From positions 1 through 53,386 of IMG/VR virus record IMGVR_UViG_3300040807_002454: a stretch of DNA of 53,386 bases; one strand, 5' to 3'. This document shows positions 1,110 through 49,442 of this stretch, in pieces. Each line of letters begins with the position of its first letter. Within the stretch, counting starts at the first letter, position 1. The notes under the pieces were generated by a model. The model made no database searches. It was not told the DNA's origin and saw only the letters and a program-made list of their open reading frames with translations. A program made the position numbers and the translations under genes. The stretch is from a virus.

Positions 1110-1659
1110 CGTTTTTATCTGTTAGGTTATCTACCCACATAGCTAAATCAGATTCTACTACTCCATTTTTCTCTTGTAGGATGAAGTTTCCCATACGTTT
1201 TAAAGCACGGTCTGAAGTTTTACAATCATCTATATAAGCTTTACAGGCCATAGGGATTAGCTCTACATCTAAATGAGGATATTTGATTCTCCATTTCCCA
1301 ATTAATTCACTAATACTTTGAGGATCACCATGGTAATGGGAATATCCACTGTATTGTTTCTTAAAATACCCACGAGCTTTCTCTACTACATTGCCTAAGT
1401 TAGATATAAATGTAGCATAAATAGGTTTTATAAAGTTTATTCTGGTATGTTCTCCAGAATATAAATCTATATGTCCTTCGTTATAAAATTTCAAGACAAT
1501 TTCATTAATAACATCATGAAGTTGTTTCTTAAATTGAAATCCATGTTTAGGTTCTGTTATAAAATCATATAGATTTCCTCCTTCTGTACTTGCTAAAATT
1601 ACAAATTTAGCTAACCACCGTCTTTCAGGCGATATACACTCTAATAATTCTTCATTCAT
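1072..1659 (-). CDS. hypothetical protein, 195 aa, between two helicases
   Basis: I do not recognise a family. The protein is predicted soluble and mostly helical, with an aromatic and histidine-rich middle (GYFKKQYSGYSHYHGDP) and an acidic, lysine-containing C-terminus. Its ATG overlaps the stop of the SF2 helicase gene by 4 bases, and its end overlaps the DnaB-like start by 38 bases, so the three are probably translationally coupled. A helicase loader or accessory factor would fit that position, but this is inferred from context only. Confidence 0.75.
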   Translation of the reverse strand: MNEELLECISPERRWLAKFVILASTEGGNLYDFITEPKHGFQFKKQLHDVINEIVLKFYNEGHIDLYSGEHTRINFIKPIYATFISNLGNVVEKARGYFKKQYSGYSHYHGDPQSISELIGKWRIKYPHLDVELIPMACKAYIDDCKTSDRALKRMGNFILQEKNGVVESDLAMWVDNLTDKNDVQDQTKKDTLI

Positions 1660-3113
1660 AATTTAAAATTAGGGAGACTTAAAGCTAAGGATGGTATTTC
1701 TCTAACTATATTCAAGTCCATTTTTCCTATTAATTTTTTATCTGTGCCATAAATATATTGCATAGATTCAAACCATGCTTCTTCATACGTATTTATAGTT
1801 CTAAATACATATAAATTGGCAGTCTTTTTTAATTTACCATCTGTCCGCCATGTTCGAGCTACTTTCTGACTCATAGGGGTATGTTTAGATCCATATGATA
1901 GTAATATACCATTATCTACATTATCTAGTGTCATACCTCTTCCTATAGCCTTAGACGATGCTATTTCGGTTATTTCACCTCTATTAAACTTTTCAAAGAG
2001 TACCTTAGACTCTACTCTTGTAGTAAGCCAAATACTTTTTGCAGTCTCATACTCTGTTTGAGTAATGAATTTTTCTTTAAGCTCTAGTAAATGACGTTTT
2101 AGATACCTAAACACATCTTGTCCATCCTTTTTTACTTTCTTTTTATTATAAAAGATATTGTCTACTACAAAGGATGATGACGCCTTACTAGTAACTACAT
2201 TAGGAGTAATTAAGTTTAATAAAGCTAATCGTTCAGAAAAAATAATAGTCTTTCCGGGCAGTAACTTAAGTAATTTCTTAGCTGCTACTGCTTTAGATGG
2301 TAAATTATATAAAAATCTACTCATCTGTTGTCCTATTACTTGTTTAGCTCTAGTAGGAGTATATTGGTATTGTATAGCTCCTTTCTTTTTTGCATACCAT
2401 TCCTTTTCAGTATATTTAGGAACAATTTCTTTTTTGGTTTTTTTTCGGGATCTGTACCAAATTCTTTTATGAGTATCATCAAGAGTATGGTTTATGATGA
2501 TTGTTTGCATATCTGCAATAATACCATCTAGAACTGCTTGTTCTCGGGTATACCTATAAGATACAGGTAAATAAATCTCAATCAATTGTCCTTTAGTAAT
2601 TAAATGAGTTACTTTACCCATTCTTGTAGAAGCATCTGATTGAACTAATCCAGTTTGCTCTGCTATATCTTTGAATACATATTCTCCTGCTGATTCTGTT
2701 CCTGTAAGACCTAGTTTGTAACGTGCTGGAGATTGAGTAAGATTTCTCATGTATTCAGGGGTGAGGGTAGCATCAAGCTCATCATAAACATCAAACGTTC
2801 TTGGGTGCCTAGGAATACTTTGATAGCACCAGAACTCAAGGTTAAAATCTTTTAAAGGATTTTTTCCATACACAGATTCAAAGACACTAGCTTCTTTTTT
2901 TAAATTAGAGCCTTGGTCTTTAGTAAAGGAAAAGATAAAAATAGGATCAGTATTAGTAATCCATCCTAATGTTAAAGCTCTGTAAAAGGCTTTATACATT
3001 ATGAAACTCTTACCAACCCCTTGAGAGATGATGAGAGAGGAGTTGCCCCCTCTCTCAATCCAAGATTCAAGCCCTTCCTCTTGAATCTTATTTCTTTTTG
3101 TAGATACTTCCAT
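1656..3113 (-). CDS. SF2 (DEAD/SNF2-type) helicase-like ATPase
   Basis: At 485 aa this carries superfamily 2 motifs in order: Walker A SQGVGKS at residues 30-36, Walker B DELD at 111-114, motif III LTGT at 136-139, and a motif VI-like QKVARTWRTDG near 416-426 with the arginine pair expected to contact ATP. The sequence GRGMTLDNVDNGIL just before motif VI fits motif V. Such proteins translocate on DNA. crAss-like phages usually carry an SNF2-type helicase in their replication module, and this is the likely counterpart. It overlaps its upstream neighbour by 26 bases. Confidence 0.85.
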   Translation of the reverse strand: MEVSTKRNKIQEEGLESWIERGGNSSLIISQGVGKSFIMYKAFYRALTLGWITNTDPIFIFSFTKDQGSNLKKEASVFESVYGKNPLKDFNLEFWCYQSIPRHPRTFDVYDELDATLTPEYMRNLTQSPARYKLGLTGTESAGEYVFKDIAEQTGLVQSDASTRMGKVTHLITKGQLIEIYLPVSYRYTREQAVLDGIIADMQTIIINHTLDDTHKRIWYRSRKKTKKEIVPKYTEKEWYAKKKGAIQYQYTPTRAKQVIGQQMSRFLYNLPSKAVAAKKLLKLLPGKTIIFSERLALLNLITPNVVTSKASSSFVVDNIFYNKKKVKKDGQDVFRYLKRHLLELKEKFITQTEYETAKSIWLTTRVESKVLFEKFNRGEITEIASSKAIGRGMTLDNVDNGILLSYGSKHTPMSQKVARTWRTDGKLKKTANLYVFRTINTYEEAWFESMQYIYGTDKKLIGKMDLNIVREIPSLALSLPNFKL

Positions 3114-3561
3114 TTGCTTTAATTTTCAAAATGGTTCTTGGGTCTACTAATTTAAACTCTCCTTTAGAAGTATATACTTCAATATACCCATTGTTATTCT
3201 TGTTTCGACTTGCTTTCAATGAGTAAGTTCTTTCTCCACTCGCTGCTTTCCATGTTACTGTTTGGAATTTTCCGCTTGGATCCATGAATATCTGTTGTAA
3301 TTTAGTTTTATTAACAGATATTACTTCTTTTTTCTGTTTAGGAATTGTATAAGTACGATACTTACCATTATCCCTAAATTGTAAATTCTTGATAAGTCCA
3401 TTACTACAGAGAAGATCCATAGTACCAGATACAAGTGATTGGTTCCACTTGACAGTATCATAAATACTGATAAGTCGATTCTTGACTTCTAAAGTAGTAA
3501 TTTCTCCTCTTAAAGAGATTAATTCTTTTACCACTTTTCTAATGATCTTAGTTACATTCAT
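3088..3561 (-). CDS. small protein with N-terminal winged-helix-like region
   Basis: The first 75 residues (157 aa in total) read as a winged-helix: helices, then a WNQSLVSGTMDLLCSNGLIKN recognition-type segment followed by a basic beta wing (DNGKYRTYTIPKQKK). Residues 95-150 form a separate beta-rich unit (GERTYSLKAS, GYIEVYTSKGEFKLVDP). I infer a DNA-binding accessory or regulatory protein of the replication cluster. The gene sits between the PARP gene (8-base gap) and the SF2 helicase gene (26-base overlap). No specific family could be named. Confidence 0.65.
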   Translation of the reverse strand: MNVTKIIRKVVKELISLRGEITTLEVKNRLISIYDTVKWNQSLVSGTMDLLCSNGLIKNLQFRDNGKYRTYTIPKQKKEVISVNKTKLQQIFMDPSGKFQTVTWKAASGERTYSLKASRNKNNNGYIEVYTSKGEFKLVDPRTILKIKANGSIYKKK

Positions 3562-3569
3562 AATTAAAT

Positions 3570-4697
3570 TTATTTAAACCAAATAATATAATCAATAACT
3601 ACTTGATCTTCTTTGTAGAAAATTAATTCAGAGGACAGTAAACCATCACCAGAATGTACATACAAAGAATCACAATTACGTTTCTTCATCCCTTGATAAG
3701 ACATTTCACTTCTAGAAATGTCTTTTCCGTCTCTATACCATCCTTTATACTCATATTGTTTGCCTATATGACAATTAGATATGAGAAATAAAGCATCAGG
3801 GTCATTACCTACATATCCTAATGATTTCCCTGTATCCTTGCTCATATAAATACCATCACCATATGCTGCACCTGAAATATACGCAGCATTAGTTGGACGA
3901 ATCATAAGCCCAGATTTAAGAATAGAGAAAATATTAGGACAACGAGTGCCATGAAATAAATGTTCTGTAACAGGATTTTTTTGATCTTTAATCCAATTTT
4001 CAAATCGTTCTAAACGTGGCGTAGCTAGTTTAAAGCATTTATAAATGTCTCTACGCCTATAACCCGTATTGGTTGCTTCTATTTTATCACGTAACCACGT
4101 AGGCGGTTGATCTAACTCTTTAAACTCAATGTTCAAATCTTCATATGGATTAACTGTATTAATGACATTAGCTGAATCCATACCATCTAATGCATTTTGC
4201 TCCCTAGCTAACAAAGTATTTTTTTGAGCTACATCACTAATGAGATAGTCAGATACTTTACCCATTCTTCTAGGAATTACTTTGTATAATTCTTCTAATC
4301 TACTGTTTATCTTTTTTACTTTCTTAAGGGCAGTAATTTCATCAAGAAGTTTTTGTGCTTCTTGTATTTGTTGCGGTGTAGTAGTATCTACTAAATAAGA
4401 AGAGGATACTGATCCTTTAGTGTATTTAGAAAAGACTTGATAAAAGTTATCAAAGTCTGTATTACCTGATTTAGACTGTACAACAGTCTTTACAGCTTTC
4501 AAATCACTAATATCCTTATACCCTTTTCTTAATTTACTAGAGATAGTCCGACCCCATCTAGACATGGGATATGTCTTTGTAGTTTCATGTCCTCCTACTC
4601 GCCCATATTTAACAATAAATTCAGATCCATTCTGAATCATATTATAATATTTATTGTTATTCTTGTCTCCTGCTACAAAAATTAAAAACTTTTTCAT
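3570..4697 (-). CDS. WGR-PARP: poly/mono(ADP-ribose) polymerase-like protein
   Basis: The layout of this 375-aa protein matches PARP1/PARP2 without zinc fingers. Residues 1-70 are a WGR domain (KYGRVGG in place of WGRVG, then KLRKGYKD). Residues 110-195 resemble the helical PARP regulatory domain (LEELYKVIPRRMG). Residues 215-375 are the catalytic domain. The H-Y-E triad is present: H249 in LFHGTR, Y284 in YGDGIYMSKD and E357 in SSELIFY. By family it transfers ADP-ribose from NAD+, and WGR/helical-domain PARPs are switched on by DNA breaks. Targets in the host are unknown. The start ATG overlaps the next upstream gene by 4 bases. Domain calls are strong; poly- versus mono-transfer cannot be told from sequence. 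Confidence 0.9.
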   Translation of the reverse strand: MKKFLIFVAGDKNNNKYYNMIQNGSEFIVKYGRVGGHETTKTYPMSRWGRTISSKLRKGYKDISDLKAVKTVVQSKSGNTDFDNFYQVFSKYTKGSVSSSYLVDTTTPQQIQEAQKLLDEITALKKVKKINSRLEELYKVIPRRMGKVSDYLISDVAQKNTLLAREQNALDGMDSANVINTVNPYEDLNIEFKELDQPPTWLRDKIEATNTGYRRRDIYKCFKLATPRLERFENWIKDQKNPVTEHLFHGTRCPNIFSILKSGLMIRPTNAAYISGAAYGDGIYMSKDTGKSLGYVGNDPDALFLISNCHIGKQYEYKGWYRDGKDISRSEMSYQGMKKRNCDSLYVHSGDGLLSSELIFYKEDQVVIDYIIWFK

Positions 4698-4915
4698 AAT
4701 AGGTAAACTTCATATAAATAGCCCCCTCCACTTTTACCATGTTTCCAATGTACTTTAAGTTGTAGTGTATCAACATTTTCTAGTACATCTAATACATCTC
4801 CCGGGAAGTAATGGTTACTATTTAAAAATAGTTTGAAAACATTCCTAGTGGAATCATAAAGAATCCACCAGAAATATACTATAGCATAAATGATTATTAT
4901 ATTTTCTAACACCAT
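4694..4915 (-). CDS. single-pass membrane protein, 73 aa
   Basis: An N-terminal hydrophobic helix (residues 2-20, IIIIYAIVYFWWILY) is followed by a short soluble tail ending in a glycine-rich GKSGGGYLYEVYLL strand. It is most likely an inner-membrane protein with the tail on one face. It overlaps the PARP start by 4 bases and is probably co-translated. Function unknown; anchoring or a superinfection role would be a guess. Confidence 0.6.
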   Translation of the reverse strand: MVLENIIIIYAIVYFWWILYDSTRNVFKLFLNSNHYFPGDVLDVLENVDTLQLKVHWKHGKSGGGYLYEVYLL

Positions 4916-4925
4916 AGAGTTATTG

Positions 4926-5123
4926 TTATATATTAAAGTAGTTTAAGAAAAAGATTTGAATAGTCCAATAAAATACTTCTAATATAAGAAATATAGTTAC
5001 ACTACCTAATTGTATTTCTAGAAAAGTAGGTACTTCATTACTTTTAAATACCTCAAAACCCCATATTAAACTTAATATTAGACTTATTAGAATAAAGACT
5101 CCAATGTGATTTAATAAAGTCAT
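4926..5123 (-). CDS. two-helix membrane protein, 65 aa
   Basis: Two hydrophobic helices (about residues 5-23 and 40-60) are joined by a short charged loop (FKSNEVPTF). Size and topology resemble small phage holins, but the gene is not beside the cell-wall hydrolase (10973-11449), so a lysis role is only one possibility. It lies 10 bases upstream of the 73-aa membrane gene, and the two look like a membrane pair transcribed with the PARP. Confidence 0.55.
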   Translation of the reverse strand: MTLLNHIGVFILISLILSLIWGFEVFKSNEVPTFLEIQLGSVTIFLILEVFYWTIQIFFLNYFNI

Positions 5124-5448: not shown

Positions 5449-7671
5449 TTAATGTACCCAACAAGATGCTACTTCACAGTCTGCATCCATAGGAACATCG
5501 CTACATAAATAAGTACCAGCTCTCTTCATAGCCTCTTCAATTATAGGAGCATGTTCTTCTAAACCAATACAGTTTAGTTCGTCATGTACAGGAATGACCA
5601 TCTGTAAGTCTAAATCCTCTTCTAATATTCTATTATAAAGAATAGTCATTGCTATCTTTGTCATAGTACTACTTAATCCTTGTACAGGGGTATTAAGACC
5701 ACGCCTTTCCGCTTTTCCTTTATAAGACATATATTCTTTCCATATTTTACTCCACTCAGTTTCTGTTCTAAGTCTTAATTTTTCTTCTGGTGGAATTCTT
5801 TGCCCCTCATGATAAGAGGTAAGCCTATATGCTTGTTTTTTTAATTCCTTCATTCTTTCAAAATAAGGAAAGAAATATCGTTTATCTATAGGTTTTTTGG
5901 GTGACGAGGATATAACTGAATATCCTTTCTCAAGAATAAACTTTTTACGCTTATGGAAAGATCTGTCCAATCCTTCAAAGCCTCCAAAATATGCATTATA
6001 TAATTCTTCAGCCTCTTCTTCAGTAATCCCTAATCGTTTAGCTAACGTAAAAGGGGATCCTCCGAATTGTAAGAGAAAGGAAATAGTTTTACTATGACCT
6101 CGTTCTTTAGAATGTTCATTAGTAAAATCTGGAGAAGACTTAGGAGGTACCATGTAATGAGGGTCTTCCCTCATAATTCGTTGAATATTAGTAGCAGCGA
6201 ATGAATGATAGTCTGAATCAAAAGCATTAGGTACCAAAAAGAAATCTTTCATCTTTTGATTATTATGAACTTCTGCTGCAACTCTAATTTCTTGTTGTGC
6301 ATAATCACACGATAACCACTTCTTACCTTTAGGTGCTATAAAACAATCTCTAAAGTCTTTAGTAGCAGGGATTTGCTGAATATTTGGGGATGTGGAACTA
6401 AGTCGATTAGTAATCATATACTGATTAAATCGACTATGTACTTTTTTGGTTATGGGATGTATATATTTTAGCCAATCTTTACCAAAAGTAGTTACTAATT
6501 GTTCACTACGTTTATATAGTAAATAGGCTAAACATAAAGTATCAGCATCTGTTATAGGTACATCTTTTTGCTTAAAATATGCACCTTTTAATTTAGCAGG
6601 TAATTCATCTAGTAAATGAGTAGCTCCCACTGTCCATTCGAGTCTATTTGTACTCTTAGACTTAACTCGTAATGCCAGATCGTATTTCTTAAATAGAGGA
6701 AGCACCTGTTTAGAAGAACTCCACTGAATTAAACAGTGAGCTTTGTAATTAAATAAATCTATAGTTCCTGTAAATTCAGGGTGATTTTCTTCTACATAAG
6801 TATTAAGTATTTCTAAACGTCTTTCTGCTCTTTTCTTATTCTTTTCATATGTCTCTAACCATCTCTCTACATCTATATTAAAGCCATGGTAAGTAATGTT
6901 TGCTAATACTTGTGTAAAATTAGATTCAAATCTAATGTCAAAATTAGGTTTATATAACCCTGTAGTAGTAAGTCGTCCTCTTCGTTGTATCCCATAAATA
7001 TCCAATACCATTCTACTATCTTCAACTCCATATTTAATTTGTTTAATTGTAAAAGGTTTATCACCCCAATTTACAAACTGCATACGAGTTGATTTATCTA
7101 AATACGAAGATTCTATTAGTTGCATAGCCTCTTCATCTGAATGGAATCTAATAAGTCTTGTAAATTCAGCACTAATAGTATTATCAAATAAACTATTGTC
7201 AGAAATGTCCTTTATATTTAGGTATCTATTAGCTAAAGCTGCTAAGGAATATTTTATAAATAATCCATTATATAATACCTTTTCAGCCAGCATGGTATCC
7301 CAAATGTTTACAATTCTCATACCATAATGGAGAAAGTGTAATCCTTCAAACTGTGCATTATGTATTACTTTTAGATAATTCTGACTCTCTAAAATCTCTC
7401 TAAAAGGTTCTAGATTTATTACTCTTGCATCTATGACATAATCTCTATTACCTGCTGAAAATTGTACCATACATATTCTACTTAGATAAGGATCTAAGCC
7501 AGGTTTATACACCTTAGATACATATTTATGTCTATCAAATTTCCTACTTGTTTCTATATCTAGTCCTATTACCTGATGCCCTCTCAAATATTCAAGACAG
7601 TCATCTACACTAGAAGATTTGATTTCTTCCTCTTCATAATCTATGAGAGTGTTACCTATAAAGTAAATCAT
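5449..7671 (-). CDS. family A DNA polymerase with 3'-5' exonuclease domain
   Basis: This is the 740-aa replicative polymerase candidate. The proofreading domain opens with LDIETS (D38, E40). Polymerase motifs follow in order: NRLSSTSPNIQQIP, motif A SCDYAQQEIRV, motif B SKTISFLLQFGGSPF (K-x3-F-x3-F-G in place of K-x3-F-x3-Y-G), and motif C VIPVHDELNC (H696-D697-E698). No 5'-nuclease domain is present, as is usual for phage PolA enzymes. The motif-B tyrosine is phenylalanine (QFGG), as in E. coli Pol I-type enzymes that discriminate against dideoxynucleotides. The ATG overlaps the upstream 117-aa gene by 4 bases. Confidence 0.95.
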   Translation of the reverse strand: MIYFIGNTLIDYEEEEIKSSSVDDCLEYLRGHQVIGLDIETSRKFDRHKYVSKVYKPGLDPYLSRICMVQFSAGNRDYVIDARVINLEPFREILESQNYLKVIHNAQFEGLHFLHYGMRIVNIWDTMLAEKVLYNGLFIKYSLAALANRYLNIKDISDNSLFDNTISAEFTRLIRFHSDEEAMQLIESSYLDKSTRMQFVNWGDKPFTIKQIKYGVEDSRMVLDIYGIQRRGRLTTTGLYKPNFDIRFESNFTQVLANITYHGFNIDVERWLETYEKNKKRAERRLEILNTYVEENHPEFTGTIDLFNYKAHCLIQWSSSKQVLPLFKKYDLALRVKSKSTNRLEWTVGATHLLDELPAKLKGAYFKQKDVPITDADTLCLAYLLYKRSEQLVTTFGKDWLKYIHPITKKVHSRFNQYMITNRLSSTSPNIQQIPATKDFRDCFIAPKGKKWLSCDYAQQEIRVAAEVHNNQKMKDFFLVPNAFDSDYHSFAATNIQRIMREDPHYMVPPKSSPDFTNEHSKERGHSKTISFLLQFGGSPFTLAKRLGITEEEAEELYNAYFGGFEGLDRSFHKRKKFILEKGYSVISSSPKKPIDKRYFFPYFERMKELKKQAYRLTSYHEGQRIPPEEKLRLRTETEWSKIWKEYMSYKGKAERRGLNTPVQGLSSTMTKIAMTILYNRILEEDLDLQMVIPVHDELNCIGLEEHAPIIEEAMKRAGTYLCSDVPMDADCEVASCWVH

Positions 7672-12057: not shown

Positions 12058-12087
12058 AATATTTGATTTAGTGTGTAATATAAATAG

Positions 12088-12160
12088 TTGGCCCATAGGG
12101 ATTTGAACCCTAAATACCGCGTTATGAGCGCGACGTGATAACCAGTTTCACCATGGGCCA
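12088..12160 (-). tRNA. tRNA-Met or tRNA-Ile2 (anticodon CAT)
   Basis: A cloverleaf is read on the minus strand. The acceptor TGGCCCA pairs with TGGGCCA, the D-stem is GTGA/TCAC, and the anticodon stem CGCG/CGCG has loop CTCATAA. The T-stem is AGGG/CCCT and the discriminator is A. CCA is not encoded. Anticodon CAT could read AUG, or AUA if its C is converted to lysidine. It is not initiator-like, because 1:72 is T-A, which is an ordinary pair. Confidence 0.9.
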
Positions 12161-12197: not shown

Positions 12198-12620
12198 TCA
12201 GATACTCTTTAAGAGTTTTTTCGCCTGCTTACGCAATGCATCGCCACCTTTTGCTTTTAATGCCTCCAAATCAGCTGATTTAGCTAACTCTAAAATCTCC
12301 TGTACTTCTTTCTTTACAGAAGACATCTTAGTCTGTTTTATGTATAAATCTTTTTTATACTCAAAAACAGCTTTCACTACTTCAATTTGTAAAGATAGAG
12401 TAGAATCTTCCCCTACATTAGTCAAAGTTTCTACTTCTGTAGTCTTCCTTAATTTTGAAAGCTCTCTAAGAGCATAGTTAAGGGACGGACGTTGATTCTC
12501 ATTATTATCCATCTCCCTGCTAAAACAGGCATGTAAATCAAATAATTGTTCAGTGCTAACCCAACCTTTAACGGTTGGAAACTTTAACTTTTGTATTAGG
12601 GCTTGTTTGAAAATGTCCAT
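12198..12620 (-). CDS. helical hypothetical protein, 140 aa
   Basis: Two long helical regions flank a threonine-rich turn, and the C-terminus is alanine/lysine-rich (EALKAKGGDALRKQAKKLL). The start overlaps the end of the 671-aa gene by 53 bases, an unusually deep overlap that implies coupling. No domain recognised; perhaps a partner of the 671-aa protein. Confidence 0.65.
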   Translation of the reverse strand: MDIFKQALIQKLKFPTVKGWVSTEQLFDLHACFSREMDNNENQRPSLNYALRELSKLRKTTEVETLTNVGEDSTLSLQIEVVKAVFEYKKDLYIKQTKMSSVKKEVQEILELAKSADLEALKAKGGDALRKQAKKLLKSI

Positions 12621-14583
12621 TGAACTTAAGTTTTATAACTTTCCCATCTGCTCTCACTGTAATACTATCTTTAGTATTAACAGAGAAACCTAGACCAGCA
12701 AGTTGGTTATCAGAATAAGAAGCTCTTGTTCTAGCTCCCAATGCTTCAAAAACTCTTTTCTCCTGTTGTAATACAGGATTTAAAAATTCATTGTATATTC
12801 CTCTTACAGAACTAGGATTTTTAACCCCATCTATAATGAAGAAGTAATGAGGATTTCCTACTTTATCTTTCCAATAATTAGGAGAGAGCATAAAGGTATC
12901 GACTTTATGATACTTTTGCGTATTAATTCCCCAAATATTTCGAGATTGTGCTTCACTAGGTATATGAGATTTCATACTCATTTTACCATTTTTGCACGTT
13001 ACAGTAGCTACATTTACAAACTCTCCCTGACGTAATCCCTTGTTATAAACAAAAGAGTGAGTAGTCCCTCCAAATACTACTTCGGCTTTAAATCCTTTTT
13101 GAACACCCCTAAGGGCATAATTGTGTACTCTAAACTTAAACTTTGCATCTACTAGTTCAGTGAATACTATATTCTCCACAATATCACTCTTATAACTTTT
13201 GGGAGTTTGTATGTCTACATCTAAGTGTCCATGTTCAGTTCGTTTTCTAGAATAATAAATATGTTTATCTAGATACGAACAATGAGCATCTAAGTCCGAA
13301 TTGTCTTCAGCATTATCAGCCCAAGAAATAGAGAATCTTAATAAACCATCTACATTTCCTCCTCTGTTCTTAACAGATTTAGTAATAGATGATATAGTAT
13401 TCTCTCCATTATAGCTCCATCTGAACCCATTATCCCAGGCCAAGATACTAGGGCCTCGTTCTTGAGCTAACATATTCATAAAGTTACCTTCATGATTGTT
13501 CTCTACTAAAATTTCTAGATCCTTGATAGTAGGAAGAATTTTCATAAAGGCTTGAATATCCATTTCAGTACCATAGGCAGGTTTTTTTTCTACAAGGTCT
13601 TCCAATAGTCCATCCAGAGCTCCTGACATTAGACTCTTTGCTTTGGAACTTGTCCAGAATACATGTTGGATGTTTAAGTCTCCTAACGTTGCATGCCTTA
13701 CAGGAATACTATCCTCAAAGCCTAATGCTTTAAGCTTATTCTCTGCCTCTAGGACTTGTTTTCTTGTAAATATGGCTTTGGGCCTCTTATAGGATACACC
13801 TACTATAGTTCTACCGAACTTAGTAACTGCATCTAATAAAGGTATTCCTTCATTGATTTCAATAAGTAGCGTCCCTATTGCTGTGTTTCTAATGGCTAAT
13901 TTTCTACCATACTTGGCAGTAGCTATCCAAAGTTCTTCTTCAGTACCTTCCCATTCAGATTGGAACCTTTGAAATGTTTCAATAGCAAATCGAAACTGTT
14001 CTGCTCTAGGTAAAGTACCTTCATTAATAAGATCCATTACGCTATCAATGGACTCTTTTGAGAACTCATTCATACTTCTCTTTATTACAGCATAAGTTTG
14101 GAGAAACTCCCCTTTCTTAGTAGCTACATCATTAGAGATACAACTAACTGGTGTTTGAGCTGAGAAGTGCTCAAATCGTTTTTCATACTTTTCAGAACTA
14201 GGGTCAACCCCAAGATTGTAATCAGTACCCATACTGGTTTCTTCAGTAAGGAATACCCCATTAATACTCTTTGTAGCTACTAAAGCATTTAACTTCTCGG
14301 CTACTACATTGTAAGGATGGGGTAAATTCTCATAATTATCCCATAAAGAAATTACTTTATTGTCTATTATCCCCACTACATTACCATAACGTCTTATAAA
14401 AGACTTACAACAGTTACAGGTGTGTACTGTCTCGGAGATGTAAATAGGGTCTGTCCCTGTTGGGAATGAGTTAATATACGTATCCCATAGCTCCTCTTTG
14501 GATACCTCTGTAGTAAAGAGCGTAGACTTGCTTTCTAAGAATTTTACGGCATTCTCCACATGGATTTTAAAGGCTTTAAACAT
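12568..14583 (-). CDS. 671-aa protein with N-terminal HxCxCC motif and DUF2135-like beta domain
   Basis: Near residue 55 the motif HTCNCCKSFIRRYGNVVGI offers a possible metal site. Residues 60-380 are helical. Around 400-520 a beta domain contains SWADNAEDNSDLDAHCSYL, HIYYSRKR, GHLDVDIQTP and VENIVF. The pattern D-x-LD-H ... IYY ... G-LD-D ... ENI resembles DUF2135/YfaP-type domains. No secretion signal is seen, so it is probably cytoplasmic. I recall similar large HxCxCC proteins in other phages, without known function. The 140-aa gene begins inside its end. Confidence 0.75.
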   Translation of the reverse strand: MFKAFKIHVENAVKFLESKSTLFTTEVSKEELWDTYINSFPTGTDPIYISETVHTCNCCKSFIRRYGNVVGIIDNKVISLWDNYENLPHPYNVVAEKLNALVATKSINGVFLTEETSMGTDYNLGVDPSSEKYEKRFEHFSAQTPVSCISNDVATKKGEFLQTYAVIKRSMNEFSKESIDSVMDLINEGTLPRAEQFRFAIETFQRFQSEWEGTEEELWIATAKYGRKLAIRNTAIGTLLIEINEGIPLLDAVTKFGRTIVGVSYKRPKAIFTRKQVLEAENKLKALGFEDSIPVRHATLGDLNIQHVFWTSSKAKSLMSGALDGLLEDLVEKKPAYGTEMDIQAFMKILPTIKDLEILVENNHEGNFMNMLAQERGPSILAWDNGFRWSYNGENTISSITKSVKNRGGNVDGLLRFSISWADNAEDNSDLDAHCSYLDKHIYYSRKRTEHGHLDVDIQTPKSYKSDIVENIVFTELVDAKFKFRVHNYALRGVQKGFKAEVVFGGTTHSFVYNKGLRQGEFVNVATVTCKNGKMSMKSHIPSEAQSRNIWGINTQKYHKVDTFMLSPNYWKDKVGNPHYFFIIDGVKNPSSVRGIYNEFLNPVLQQEKRVFEALGARTRASYSDNQLAGLGFSVNTKDSITVRADGKVIKLKFNGHFQTSPNTKVKVSNR

Positions 14584-15873: not shown

Positions 15874-15875
15874 AG

Positions 15876-15946
15876 TAACCCCATCAGGATTTGAACCTGA
15901 ACGAACTGCTTAGAAGGCAGTAATGCTTCCATTACATCATGAGGCT
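15876..15946 (-). tRNA. tRNA-Arg (anticodon TCT)
   Basis: The acceptor AGCCTCA pairs with TGGGGTT (two wobbles) and the D-stem is ATGT/GCAT. The anticodon stem ACTGC/GCAGT has loop CTTCTAA, the T-stem is TCAGG/CCTGA and the discriminator is A, with no CCA. It reads AGA/AGG codons, which dominate arginine usage in the phage genes here. Confidence 0.92.
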
Positions 15947-22284: not shown

Positions 22285-23610
22285 TTATAAAATCCTTTTT
22301 AAGATATTTTCTTTGTTCCAACCTTCAAGCTGTAACTCAAAAGCTGTATTCAGTATTGTTGTGAACTTAGGCGAAGGAGTCATTCCTGCCTGAATTAAGT
22401 CTCTCCCCTTGACAAGAGGTTCTATCTTCTCTGGAAAAGAAGTATGGAATTGAAAACATCTTTCTGATGGAAGATGCTTGTCACGAATACTTCTACCAGT
22501 TCTCCCAGCACTGTCAGCTTTACTTAACCATCCTAAAAGGTCAAGTCTGCATAAAAGATGTAATCTTTTCCAAGCTGACAATTTGGCATTACCTGAAGAT
22601 AGTTGTCCAGGTCTCATATGTAATCCTACCAACTTAGGTACAAGTTCTAATAAAAATTTATTATCAGTAATCCTTTCCATAAAAGTTTTAGCAAGTGGAA
22701 TACCTGCTGTATCATGTTTAGGACTTCTTAAGTCCTTGTCAGTAGTACTAGGCTTACCAATATCATGCAACAATGCTGCAAACATATAAGCAAGTCTATA
22801 TTCTTCTGGTACATGCCGTCTTAGTTGAGCAGCATTATCTAACACCATTAGAGTATGTACCCATACGTCACCTTCTGGATGCCATTCAGGATTTTGTTCA
22901 CATCCAATAAGATCTAACAACTCTGGAAAATGAACTAACCATCCACATTCCTTTAAAAACTCTAAGCCCATTGAAGGCCTTTCGGCTTTAAGGAGTAATT
23001 TTTTAAACTCCTCAAATACTCTCTCCTTAGATAACTCACTAAAGGAGTCAATTATAGTCGAGCACAATACTTTTGTATCATACTCAACTACTCTCCCTTT
23101 CCTTGGTAAGAGTTGCATAATCCTTAGAACTCTCAACGGATCTTCTACGAAGGTATCAGGATTTGTAGCTCTTAAGATACCTGCATGTAAATCCTTTAAC
23201 CCATTATAAGGATCAATTAATTCCCCAGTATGTAAATCTCTATACATACTATTGATCGTTAAATCTCTCCTTAATGCAGCTTCTTTTGGAGTCATCATAG
23301 AATCTAACTCTATGTTAAATCTTTTGTGACCAACTCCTATTTTATTCTCTCGTCGAGGAACAGATAAATCAATATCTACTCCTCCTATTTTTGTTATAAT
23401 TACTCCAAAGGATACCCCTTCTAACTTAAAGGAATGTCCTAACTCTTTTAAAGTAGACAGTATATCAACTAAAGACAAGCCATAGATTTCTATATCCCAG
23501 TCTTTAACTATGCGAGACTGAATAGTGTCTATTACAGCCCCTCCAATTAATAGACATCTACCTCCTTTTTTGGCAATAGTATCTATAAAAACTTGTAAAG
23601 TTTCATTCAT
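22285..23610 (-). CDS. CCA-adding enzyme (tRNA nucleotidyltransferase) with HD domain
   Basis: This 441-aa class II nucleotidyltransferase shows LLIGGAVID at 20-28 (G-G), KDWDIEIYG with the metal-binding acidic residues at 37-41, RRDLTINSM near 115 and EDPLRVLRIMQL. An HD domain follows (VHTLMVLDNAA, FAALLHDIGKP) near residues 250-290. It should add CCA to tRNA 3' ends or repair them. None of the six phage tRNAs here encodes CCA, so it fits their maturation. Its leader carries the tRNA-like fold at 23636-23742, 25 bases before the ATG. Confidence 0.92.
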   Translation of the reverse strand: MNETLQVFIDTIAKKGGRCLLIGGAVIDTIQSRIVKDWDIEIYGLSLVDILSTLKELGHSFKLEGVSFGVIITKIGGVDIDLSVPRRENKIGVGHKRFNIELDSMMTPKEAALRRDLTINSMYRDLHTGELIDPYNGLKDLHAGILRATNPDTFVEDPLRVLRIMQLLPRKGRVVEYDTKVLCSTIIDSFSELSKERVFEEFKKLLLKAERPSMGLEFLKECGWLVHFPELLDLIGCEQNPEWHPEGDVWVHTLMVLDNAAQLRRHVPEEYRLAYMFAALLHDIGKPSTTDKDLRSPKHDTAGIPLAKTFMERITDNKFLLELVPKLVGLHMRPGQLSSGNAKLSAWKRLHLLCRLDLLGWLSKADSAGRTGRSIRDKHLPSERCFQFHTSFPEKIEPLVKGRDLIQAGMTPSPKFTTILNTAFELQLEGWNKENILKRIL

Positions 23611-26143: not shown

Positions 26144-26976
26144 GGCTAAAGATTTAAACTAGGATACACAAGTGAATTCACACCTATGTATCCTGCGAGT
26201 ACAAAACTGATGACTGCGAAGGATACTCCCTTCTTTGGCAACGTTAAGCTGTTGCTGCCAAGCTAACCGAAATTAGACTATCTTTGGAGATACAATACTC
26301 CTAGTTATTTTAACTCATCTCTTGCTAGTCTTCTATTATTCCTTAGAGTCCGTAGAGTCTAATAGAATAGAAAAGAAGGTGTATTAGCAAAAGACTCGTC
26401 TCACCCTACCAAGGTGAGATTAAACTGCTTTGGTATGCAGTTAGGTATATTTTCATTTTATACTAGTTATATACTCCTCAACCCAATTGAAGTAAATAAC
26501 CAGTGCCTGATTTTAAAGTCCGCACTAACTTTCCTTTATCGTCTACTAGAACGATTTGATATCATAAACTCCCCTAAGCAGTGTAGTAGTCACTACATAG
26601 TTTGATAAAGAGTTTATAAAAAGGAATAGTAGCCCCACAGGCTTGTCAAGGTTTATCAACCTTAAAGAATTTAAGAGAGTCCTACGCTAATAAGACTCTC
26701 TTAAAAGGTTAGTCGTTATCGTAATCCAGGTAATCCTGATACGACCCGACAGTGCCATCTGGCATAAGAATGTAATCCATGATTGTATGTATTTAGTTTG
26801 AGCGTCGTATAGACCTAAACCTACTTGAAGTAGACCAACCCTTTTAAGGATTTGCACTAAATAGTTATTAGCATGCACAGATTTGATGTGTTGCTAATTT
26901 AGGGGAAAGGGAAAAGATGGAATAGGGTAGTTAGGTGAATAGCCCCTTATCTACTCCTTTATTTACCTTACTAAAG
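26144..26976 (-). ncRNA. structured leader region C (~830 nt) with kissing loops
   Basis: This gap lies between tRNA-Lys and the 26143 gene. Hairpins include AGGATACA/TGTATCCT (26161-26194), whose right arm could instead pair with GGATAC at 26221. TCTCACC/GGTGAGA (26399-26419) and AACTGC/GCAGTT (26423-26442) have loops complementary over six bases (TACCAA at 26407-26412, TTGGTA at 26430-26435). AAGGTT/AACCTT lies near 26650, and a perfect 12-bp stem TTTAAGAGAGTC/GACTCTCTTAAA spans 26670-26705. A 23-codon frame at 26709-26780 is noted but unproven. Strand is inferred from flanking minus-strand genes. Confidence 0.55.
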
Positions 26977-27049
26977 TTCTCCCACTAGGACTCGAACCTA
27001 GACTCCCTCGATTAAAAGTCGAGTGCTTTACCAATTAAGCTATGGGAGA
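26977..27049 (-). tRNA. tRNA-Lys (anticodon TTT)
   Basis: Textbook cloverleaf: acceptor TCTCCCA/TGGGAGA, D-stem AGCT/AGC with loop TAATTGGTAA, anticodon stem CTCGA/TCGAG with loop CTTTTAA, T-stem CTAGG/CCTAG, discriminator A. CCA is not encoded. It heads the leader of region C. Confidence 0.95.
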
Positions 27050-48874: not shown

Positions 48875-48948
48875 TTCCAAAGTAGTTTAATTGGTAAAAC
48901 ATCTGTTTGTGGAGCAGAAGTAAGTAGTTCAAATCTACTCTTTGGAAC
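48875..48948 (+). tRNA. tRNA-His (anticodon GTG)
   Basis: The acceptor TTCCAAA pairs with TTTGGAA and the anticodon stem TCTGT/GCAGA has loop TTGTGGA. The T-arm is GTAG/CTAC with TTCAAAT, and the discriminator is C as required for histidine. The base before it is A, so the G-1 must be added after transcription. CCA is not encoded. Confidence 0.92.
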
Positions 48949-49350: not shown

Positions 49351-49424
49351 GGCTCATCAGCAAGTGGGGTTGCAAACTGATTCCAAACCAGTTGTTTTAG
49401 GAAGTTCGATTCTTCCGTGAGTCG
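49351..49424 (+). tRNA. tRNA-Trp (anticodon CCA)
   Basis: Acceptor GGCTCAT/GTGAGTC with two wobbles, anticodon loop TTCCAAA, T-arm GGAAG/CTTCC with TTCGATT, discriminator G as expected for tryptophan. The anticodon stem ACTGA/CCAGT contains an A-C mismatch next to the loop, an oddity that may be edited or tolerated. CCA end not encoded. Confidence 0.88.
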
Positions 49425-49442
49425 CATATACTCTAATATTTG

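Follow-up and report, generated by a model that had tools for sequence, protein, structure and literature searches.

The DNA analysed here, referred to below as the window, is the 53,386-base IMG/VR virus fragment IMGVR_UViG_3300040807_002454. Replication genes occupy its left arm, on the minus strand, and structural genes its right arm, on the plus strand, with head genes that match the PHROG terminase, portal and major-head families. The nearest named relatives of its terminase and polymerase are mostly crAss-like phages at 26-29% identity; by sequence resemblance, the source is a distant crAss-like phage. A PARP gene lies in the replication arm, within a tight operon in the order PolA, three small ORFs, PARP, a winged-helix gene, SF2 helicase, a 195-aa ORF and a DnaB-like protein. 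The features referred to below are:

3-1109: DnaB-like protein, a replication gene near PARP
1656-3113, minus strand: SF2-type helicase (Helicase_C, Pfam 1.6e-6), the next operon gene after the partner
3088-3561, minus strand: winged-helix partner, 157 aa, phrog_33401 (profile, synteny with phi4:1, AlphaFold2)
3570-4697, minus strand: WGR-PARP (ADP-ribosyltransferase), 375 aa (ORF, Pfam, profile, AlphaFold2, Foldseek); WGR at about residues 1-70, helical domain at about 78-180, ART at about 190-375, triad H249, Y284 and E357
4694-4915, minus strand: small ORF of 73 aa with hydrophobic N-terminus, no Pfam family above cut-off
4926-5123, minus strand: small hydrophobic ORF of 65 aa from the ORF list, probably a membrane protein
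5449-7671, minus strand: family A DNA polymerase (PolA) with 3'-5' exonuclease, upstream of PARP (Pfam 5.6e-48 and 4.2e-17)
12087-12160, 15875-15946, 26976-27049, 48876-48948 and 49351-49425: five tRNA genes

The genes around PARP are closely packed. The stop of the 73-aa ORF overlaps the PARP start codon, the winged-helix gene starts 8 bp downstream of the PARP stop on the same strand, and the helicase gene overlaps the winged-helix gene by 26 bases. The replication cluster that the first-pass annotation had placed around PARP is indeed present, with PolA, the Helicase_C protein and the DnaB-like protein, and the linkage of the helicase to PARP and its partner is seen in this phage only. The annotation had further singled out two adjoining small membrane genes. 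Both ORFs look hydrophobic by eye, but relatives of them are absent beside the other PARPs compared, and we reject them as conserved PARP partners. The winged-helix gene did not appear in that annotation.

The PARP ORF is genuine, with an ATG start. It had been described as a full WGR, helical and catalytic layout with H249, Y284 and E357 retained, to be checked by HMM searches and by structural comparison with PARP1. The HMM searches gave a clear PARP match (PF00644, 5.6e-17, 62.4 bits, cut-off 26.7) and a WGR match (1.5e-4) that is marginal, since its 22.3 bits barely exceed the cut-off of 22; the motif here reads Y31-G32-R33. The Pfam PARP_reg model gave no match on the window protein, which is usual for the helical domain of prokaryotic PARPs (PMC5966428). 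A family profile built from eight relatives is colinear with the helical and ART domains of PARP1 (E 5.7e-26) and with the whole of PARP2 from WGR onward (WGR-HD-ART, E 6.8e-26). The AlphaFold2 model (mean pLDDT 88.7, pTM 0.83) consists of a WGR sheet and helix, four long helices (80-100, 108-123, 127-140 and 156-179) and an ART domain, with a poorly modelled loop at 268-276 adjoining the active site. In Foldseek this model comes closest to PDB chains of PARP1 WGR-CAT bound to a DNA double-strand break (E 2.6e-21; TMq 0.71 for 4dqy). Homology and the model both support the layout as described. The protein belongs to phrog_23333 (8e-107).

The catalytic residues were numbered exactly. In the family profile alignment they fall on the PARP1 triad positions, and all 137 aligned relatives retain H249 and Y284, with E357 present in 136. 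NAD-contact residues are near-invariant across the same relatives, and the window protein retains every one. D171 is the equivalent of the PARP1 helix-F aspartate D770, as counted along the profile alignment from PARP1 H862, and is kept in 130 of the 137. With its ART domain and H-Y-E triad, the protein is an H-Y-E PARP (ARTD). Its WGR domain, seen by Pfam, in the Y31-G32-R33 motif, in the PARP2 alignment and in the model, is a feature shared with the DNA-dependent PARPs (PARP1-3, clade 1). The helical domain is recognised from the profile alignment, the modelled helices between 80 and 179 and Foldseek, and its autoinhibitory function is a prediction. N-terminal zinc fingers and BRCT are absent, which separates the protein from PARP1 proper; because it begins at the WGR domain, it is PARP2/3-like. 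The kept triad glutamate is compatible with poly-ADP-ribosylation, in a permissive sense only as regards poly- versus mono-modification. Compared with human PARP2, PARP3 and PARP1 WGR-CAT, the domain order, triad, D770 equivalent and predicted fold are common, whereas the window protein is only about 20% identical, is shorter, has YGR in place of WGR, lacks the N-terminal zinc fingers, BRCT and basic tail, and is accompanied by a winged-helix gene.

Such an enzyme is less exceptional than had been claimed. "Unusual in phages" is too strong, given at least 172 related viral loci in our collection scan and a closest relative published in 2014 (PMC4245714). This relative is gp031 of Cellulophaga phage phi4:1 (YP_008240619; 48% identity over 99%), named as a phage PARP together with that of Aeromonas phage Aeh1 (PMC4245714). 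The PARP of phage XacN1 followed in 2021 (PMC7824862), and in 2022 PART/PARP was counted as one of the commonest ART families of viruses (PMC9503650). The enzyme itself is therefore a further member of the known phage PARPs. Together with the window PARP, its closest relatives, those of phi4:1 and of locus L021, form a fully supported clade. The phi4:1 protein and its homologue in phi17:2 share domain order and phrog_23333 with it, and gp031 is likewise followed by a winged-helix gene, gp030. The gene after that encodes an ATP-dependent DNA ligase in phi4:1 and an SF2 helicase in the window. The phages themselves differ: phi4:1 is a 145-kb Lightbulbvirus, the window a distant crAss-like phage whose terminase is at best 27% identical. 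Another 74 related stretches came from scanning bacterial genomes, mainly those of Bacteroidota and Bacillota. Bacterial WGR-PARPs (Herpetosiphon, Clostridioides CD160, Spirosoma, Saprospiraceae) have the architecture and YGR motif of the window protein, with a helical domain that Pfam often misses as it does here, and those of Bacteroidota have the partner gene as well; they differ in identity (about 30%) and in length (about 410-490 aa). The Herpetosiphon enzyme is reported to be DNA-dependent and to make PAR (PMC4245714).

The winged-helix gene came to light through a comparison of neighbours at 158 loci, where, in Bacteroidota genomes, the gene that immediately follows PARP encodes a small protein. 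Its sequence follows the pattern TT-LEVK-x2-LR ... Q-x2-VS ... NG-x-(F/Y)R-x-Y. A profile made from the bacterial and jumbo-phage partner cluster, to which neither the window gene nor phi4:1 contributed, matches the window gene (E 1.6e-11), phi4:1 gp030 (2.5e-11) and the neighbour in L021 (3.5e-5). We define the winged-helix PARP-partner family by a match to this profile together with an adjacent co-directional PARP, and the window gene has both. Most profile matches are found no more than about 150 bp downstream of a PARP, on the shared strand; gp030 is in the equivalent position and is 33% identical to the window protein.

The partner consists of an N-terminal winged-helix domain (about residues 3-72) and a C-terminal beta-rich domain. 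AlphaFold2 models the first 72 residues as a winged helix with pLDDT 96-98, and the closest folds are winged-helix regulators, for example BrxR and BlaI, matched weakly (E 0.01-0.03). No Pfam family covers the protein, its profile finds no sequence homologue in PDB at E<=1, and a collection scan with the single protein recovered only the same phage. Long versions contain a WGR domain of their own (Pfam 1e-6 in L129), which points to DNA, and the modelled fold suggests that the partner probably binds DNA. In L129 (3526-4473) and L151 (8418-9401) the winged helix is fused to WGR and further C-terminal sequence. We rejected homology to HPF1, on the grounds of the same empty PDB search and of the winged-helix model. 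The partner would still be analogous to HPF1 if it completes or directs PARP, with a different fold.

The association with PARP is specific. Of 200 Spirosoma-family genomes surveyed, 47 match the partner profile and 33 have a PARP with catalytic domain; all 33 PARP genes have the partner adjacent, on the same strand and at a median gap of a few bases (Fisher p 6e-27 for co-occurrence, uncorrected for relatedness). Just four of 395 genomes sampled across the class contain the partner, and three of these also have PARP, for which reason we rejected a generic DNA-binding paralogue. Three of the four PARP genomes in this set have an adjacent same-strand partner; the single exception, G532, has a macrodomain-like stretch directly after PARP. 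Ten whole PARP-bearing bacterial genomes contain one or two partner copies each. Its rarity across the class and its low copy number argue that the partner is not a common DNA-binding family found nearby by chance. We found no description of this conserved operon in the open-licence papers searched, and it is the operon, rather than an enzyme of known kind, that deserves follow-up.

The reverse dependence is looser. The partner is present without PARP in 14 of the 47 partner-bearing Spirosoma-family genomes, so it either has a function or survives where PARP is missing. Glycoside phosphorylase, sugar kinase and beta-lactamase-like genes beside these lone partners seem to be chance neighbours. 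Where PARP is present, the partner is retained beside enzymes of widely differing size, including ART-only forms, in hosts and in phages. Shortened or decayed PARPs, with the helical domain absent or ART alone, stand beside an intact partner at L182 (2224-3039), L183 and L184; in that of L182 both the triad tyrosine and the helical domain are gone. Partner-only genomes and the decay seen in L182 indicate that dependence is not mutual. In some Spirosoma-family genomes, the pair of PARP and partner, or just the partner, is flanked by stand-alone pPIWI_RE_Z-domain genes (L100:8005-8460; L182:1311-1763 and 3053-3448). The pPIWI_RE_Z domain has been found before in a PIWI-linked defence island.

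Other phage PARPs keep different company. In a Bacillota-type phage clade a macrodomain gene adjoins PARP at 62 loci, mostly directly upstream; these neighbours have Pfam matches and resemble DarG (E 3.5e-16). Such loci, for example L007 (1149-2795), L027 (5533-7200) and about 60 more, can be read as writer-eraser pairs. They share a homologous PARP and a compact operon with the window, with a macrodomain in place of the winged-helix partner. Among 101 representatives the winged-helix gene is found in 41, the macrodomain in 27 and both in none. Within the window, a fragment of the phage genome, there is no PF01661 match, and as no macrodomain adjoins the transferase we rejected a DarTG or PARP-macrodomain module for this locus. 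A macrodomain search in 16 phage records outside the Bacillota-type clade gave one weak match. It was not exhaustive, since gp002 of phi4:1 (L012:38170-38748), annotated as a macro domain protein, was missed by the Pfam Macro search; phi4:1 may thus carry writer and eraser at a distance. An ATP-dependent DNA ligase lies at most three genes from PARP in 13 of 43 phage representatives, with both kinds of companion; phi4:1 and L021, the two nearest relatives, are among them. Ligases near PARP were noted at L019 (7596-9038), L020 (2512-3804), L021 (3934-4995), L039, L066 and L085. The link is local to some lineages, and no ligase was recognised within the window, fragment as it is.

We propose that the operon encodes a DNA-end-activated ADP-ribosyltransferase which acts with a DNA-binding partner in phage replication or repair. 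This is the best explanation we can offer, and we consider its chances about even. A catalytically competent enzyme of PARP2/3 type would be produced together with the winged-helix protein from the replication operon. By homology to PARP1-3, its WGR domain would bind a DNA end or nick, and this binding would loosen the helical domain, which until then blocks the NAD+ site. The ART domain would then pass ADP-ribose to a nearby target: itself, the partner, a repair protein or the DNA end. Activation by DNA ends had been suggested from the WGR and helical domains, and both homology and the structural model speak for it. The winged-helix protein, presumably in physical contact with PARP, would serve as its cofactor, recruiter or substrate. 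The most likely role would be the handling of breaks and nicks in phage DNA. We favour a role on phage DNA because of the placement in a replication operon, the ligase neighbours and the DNA-binding type of partner.

A DNA-end-activated PARP might instead be directed at the host, modifying its proteins or capping DNA ends and so blocking host nucleases and repair, with ends from host restriction or CRISPR nucleases, or from breakdown of the host genome, as triggers. Phage ARTs mostly serve host takeover, and such a function was proposed for phage PARPs by several authors (PMC7824862, PMC9503650). The spread of the family across many large phages and the pairing of the same enzyme with either a macrodomain or a winged-helix gene are in line with this idea. 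Against it stand the replication operon, the recurrence of DNA ligase near PARP and the lack of any known anti-defence gene in the neighbourhood by PADLOC, and we regard it as unlikely. PADLOC likewise gives no match for PARP or partner, which counts against a toxin-antitoxin or abortive module, where PARP would drain NAD+ on foreign or broken DNA and its small neighbour would restrain it. The (near-)overlapping two-gene operon with its sporadic distribution, the DarG-like macrodomain neighbours of the sister group and the pPIWI_RE_Z-type genes beside some Spirosoma loci would suit such a module. The partner, however, has neither a macrodomain nor a known antitoxin fold, and decayed PARPs with a retained partner are compatible with the idea, not diagnostic of it; altogether we find it quite improbable.

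A rather doubtful option, to be taken more seriously than the previous two, is that the partner only regulates transcription, whether of the operon or of further phage genes, without acting jointly with the PARP protein. Its winged helix and beta-rich C-terminus are shaped most like BrxR and BlaI, if weakly, and it does occur without PARP. Yet its gene is placed downstream of the PARP gene, it accompanies PARPs of varied size, down to ART alone, in hosts and phages alike, and some versions carry a WGR domain. That PARP is an inactive passenger, its fold retained and its catalysis lost, is hardly credible: the L182 homologue gives a precedent, whereas in the window the near-invariant triad and NAD-contact residues are intact. 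Returning to the break-activated enzyme with a DNA-binding partner, a wider version of this proposal is attractive, if decidedly tentative. PARP and winged-helix protein might constitute a two-component, DNA-break-activated ADP-ribosylation system common to Bacteroidota and several of the phages that infect them, in which the partner is a dedicated cofactor (either an end-recruiter or the functional equivalent of HPF1 in prokaryotes). Other phages would have swapped this system for a writer-eraser macrodomain pair.

Prokaryotic and phage PARPs have been known as lists for a decade, without function or partner. A PARP-tied gene that has no Pfam family and seems to bind DNA gives a direct experimental handle, and phi4:1, which infects Cellulophaga baltica, is a culturable carrier of the pair gp031-gp030. 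The mutually exclusive companions, winged helix or macrodomain, suggest ways in which phage DNA-break signalling might be controlled.

A few other genes of the window can be recorded here. The 671-aa protein encoded at 12568-14583 strongly matches phrog_1735, a family of unknown function (1.6e-186). The five tRNA genes are for Met, Arg, Lys, His and Trp. A tRNA nucleotidyltransferase gene lies at 22285-23610, and phi4:1 has one directly before its PARP.
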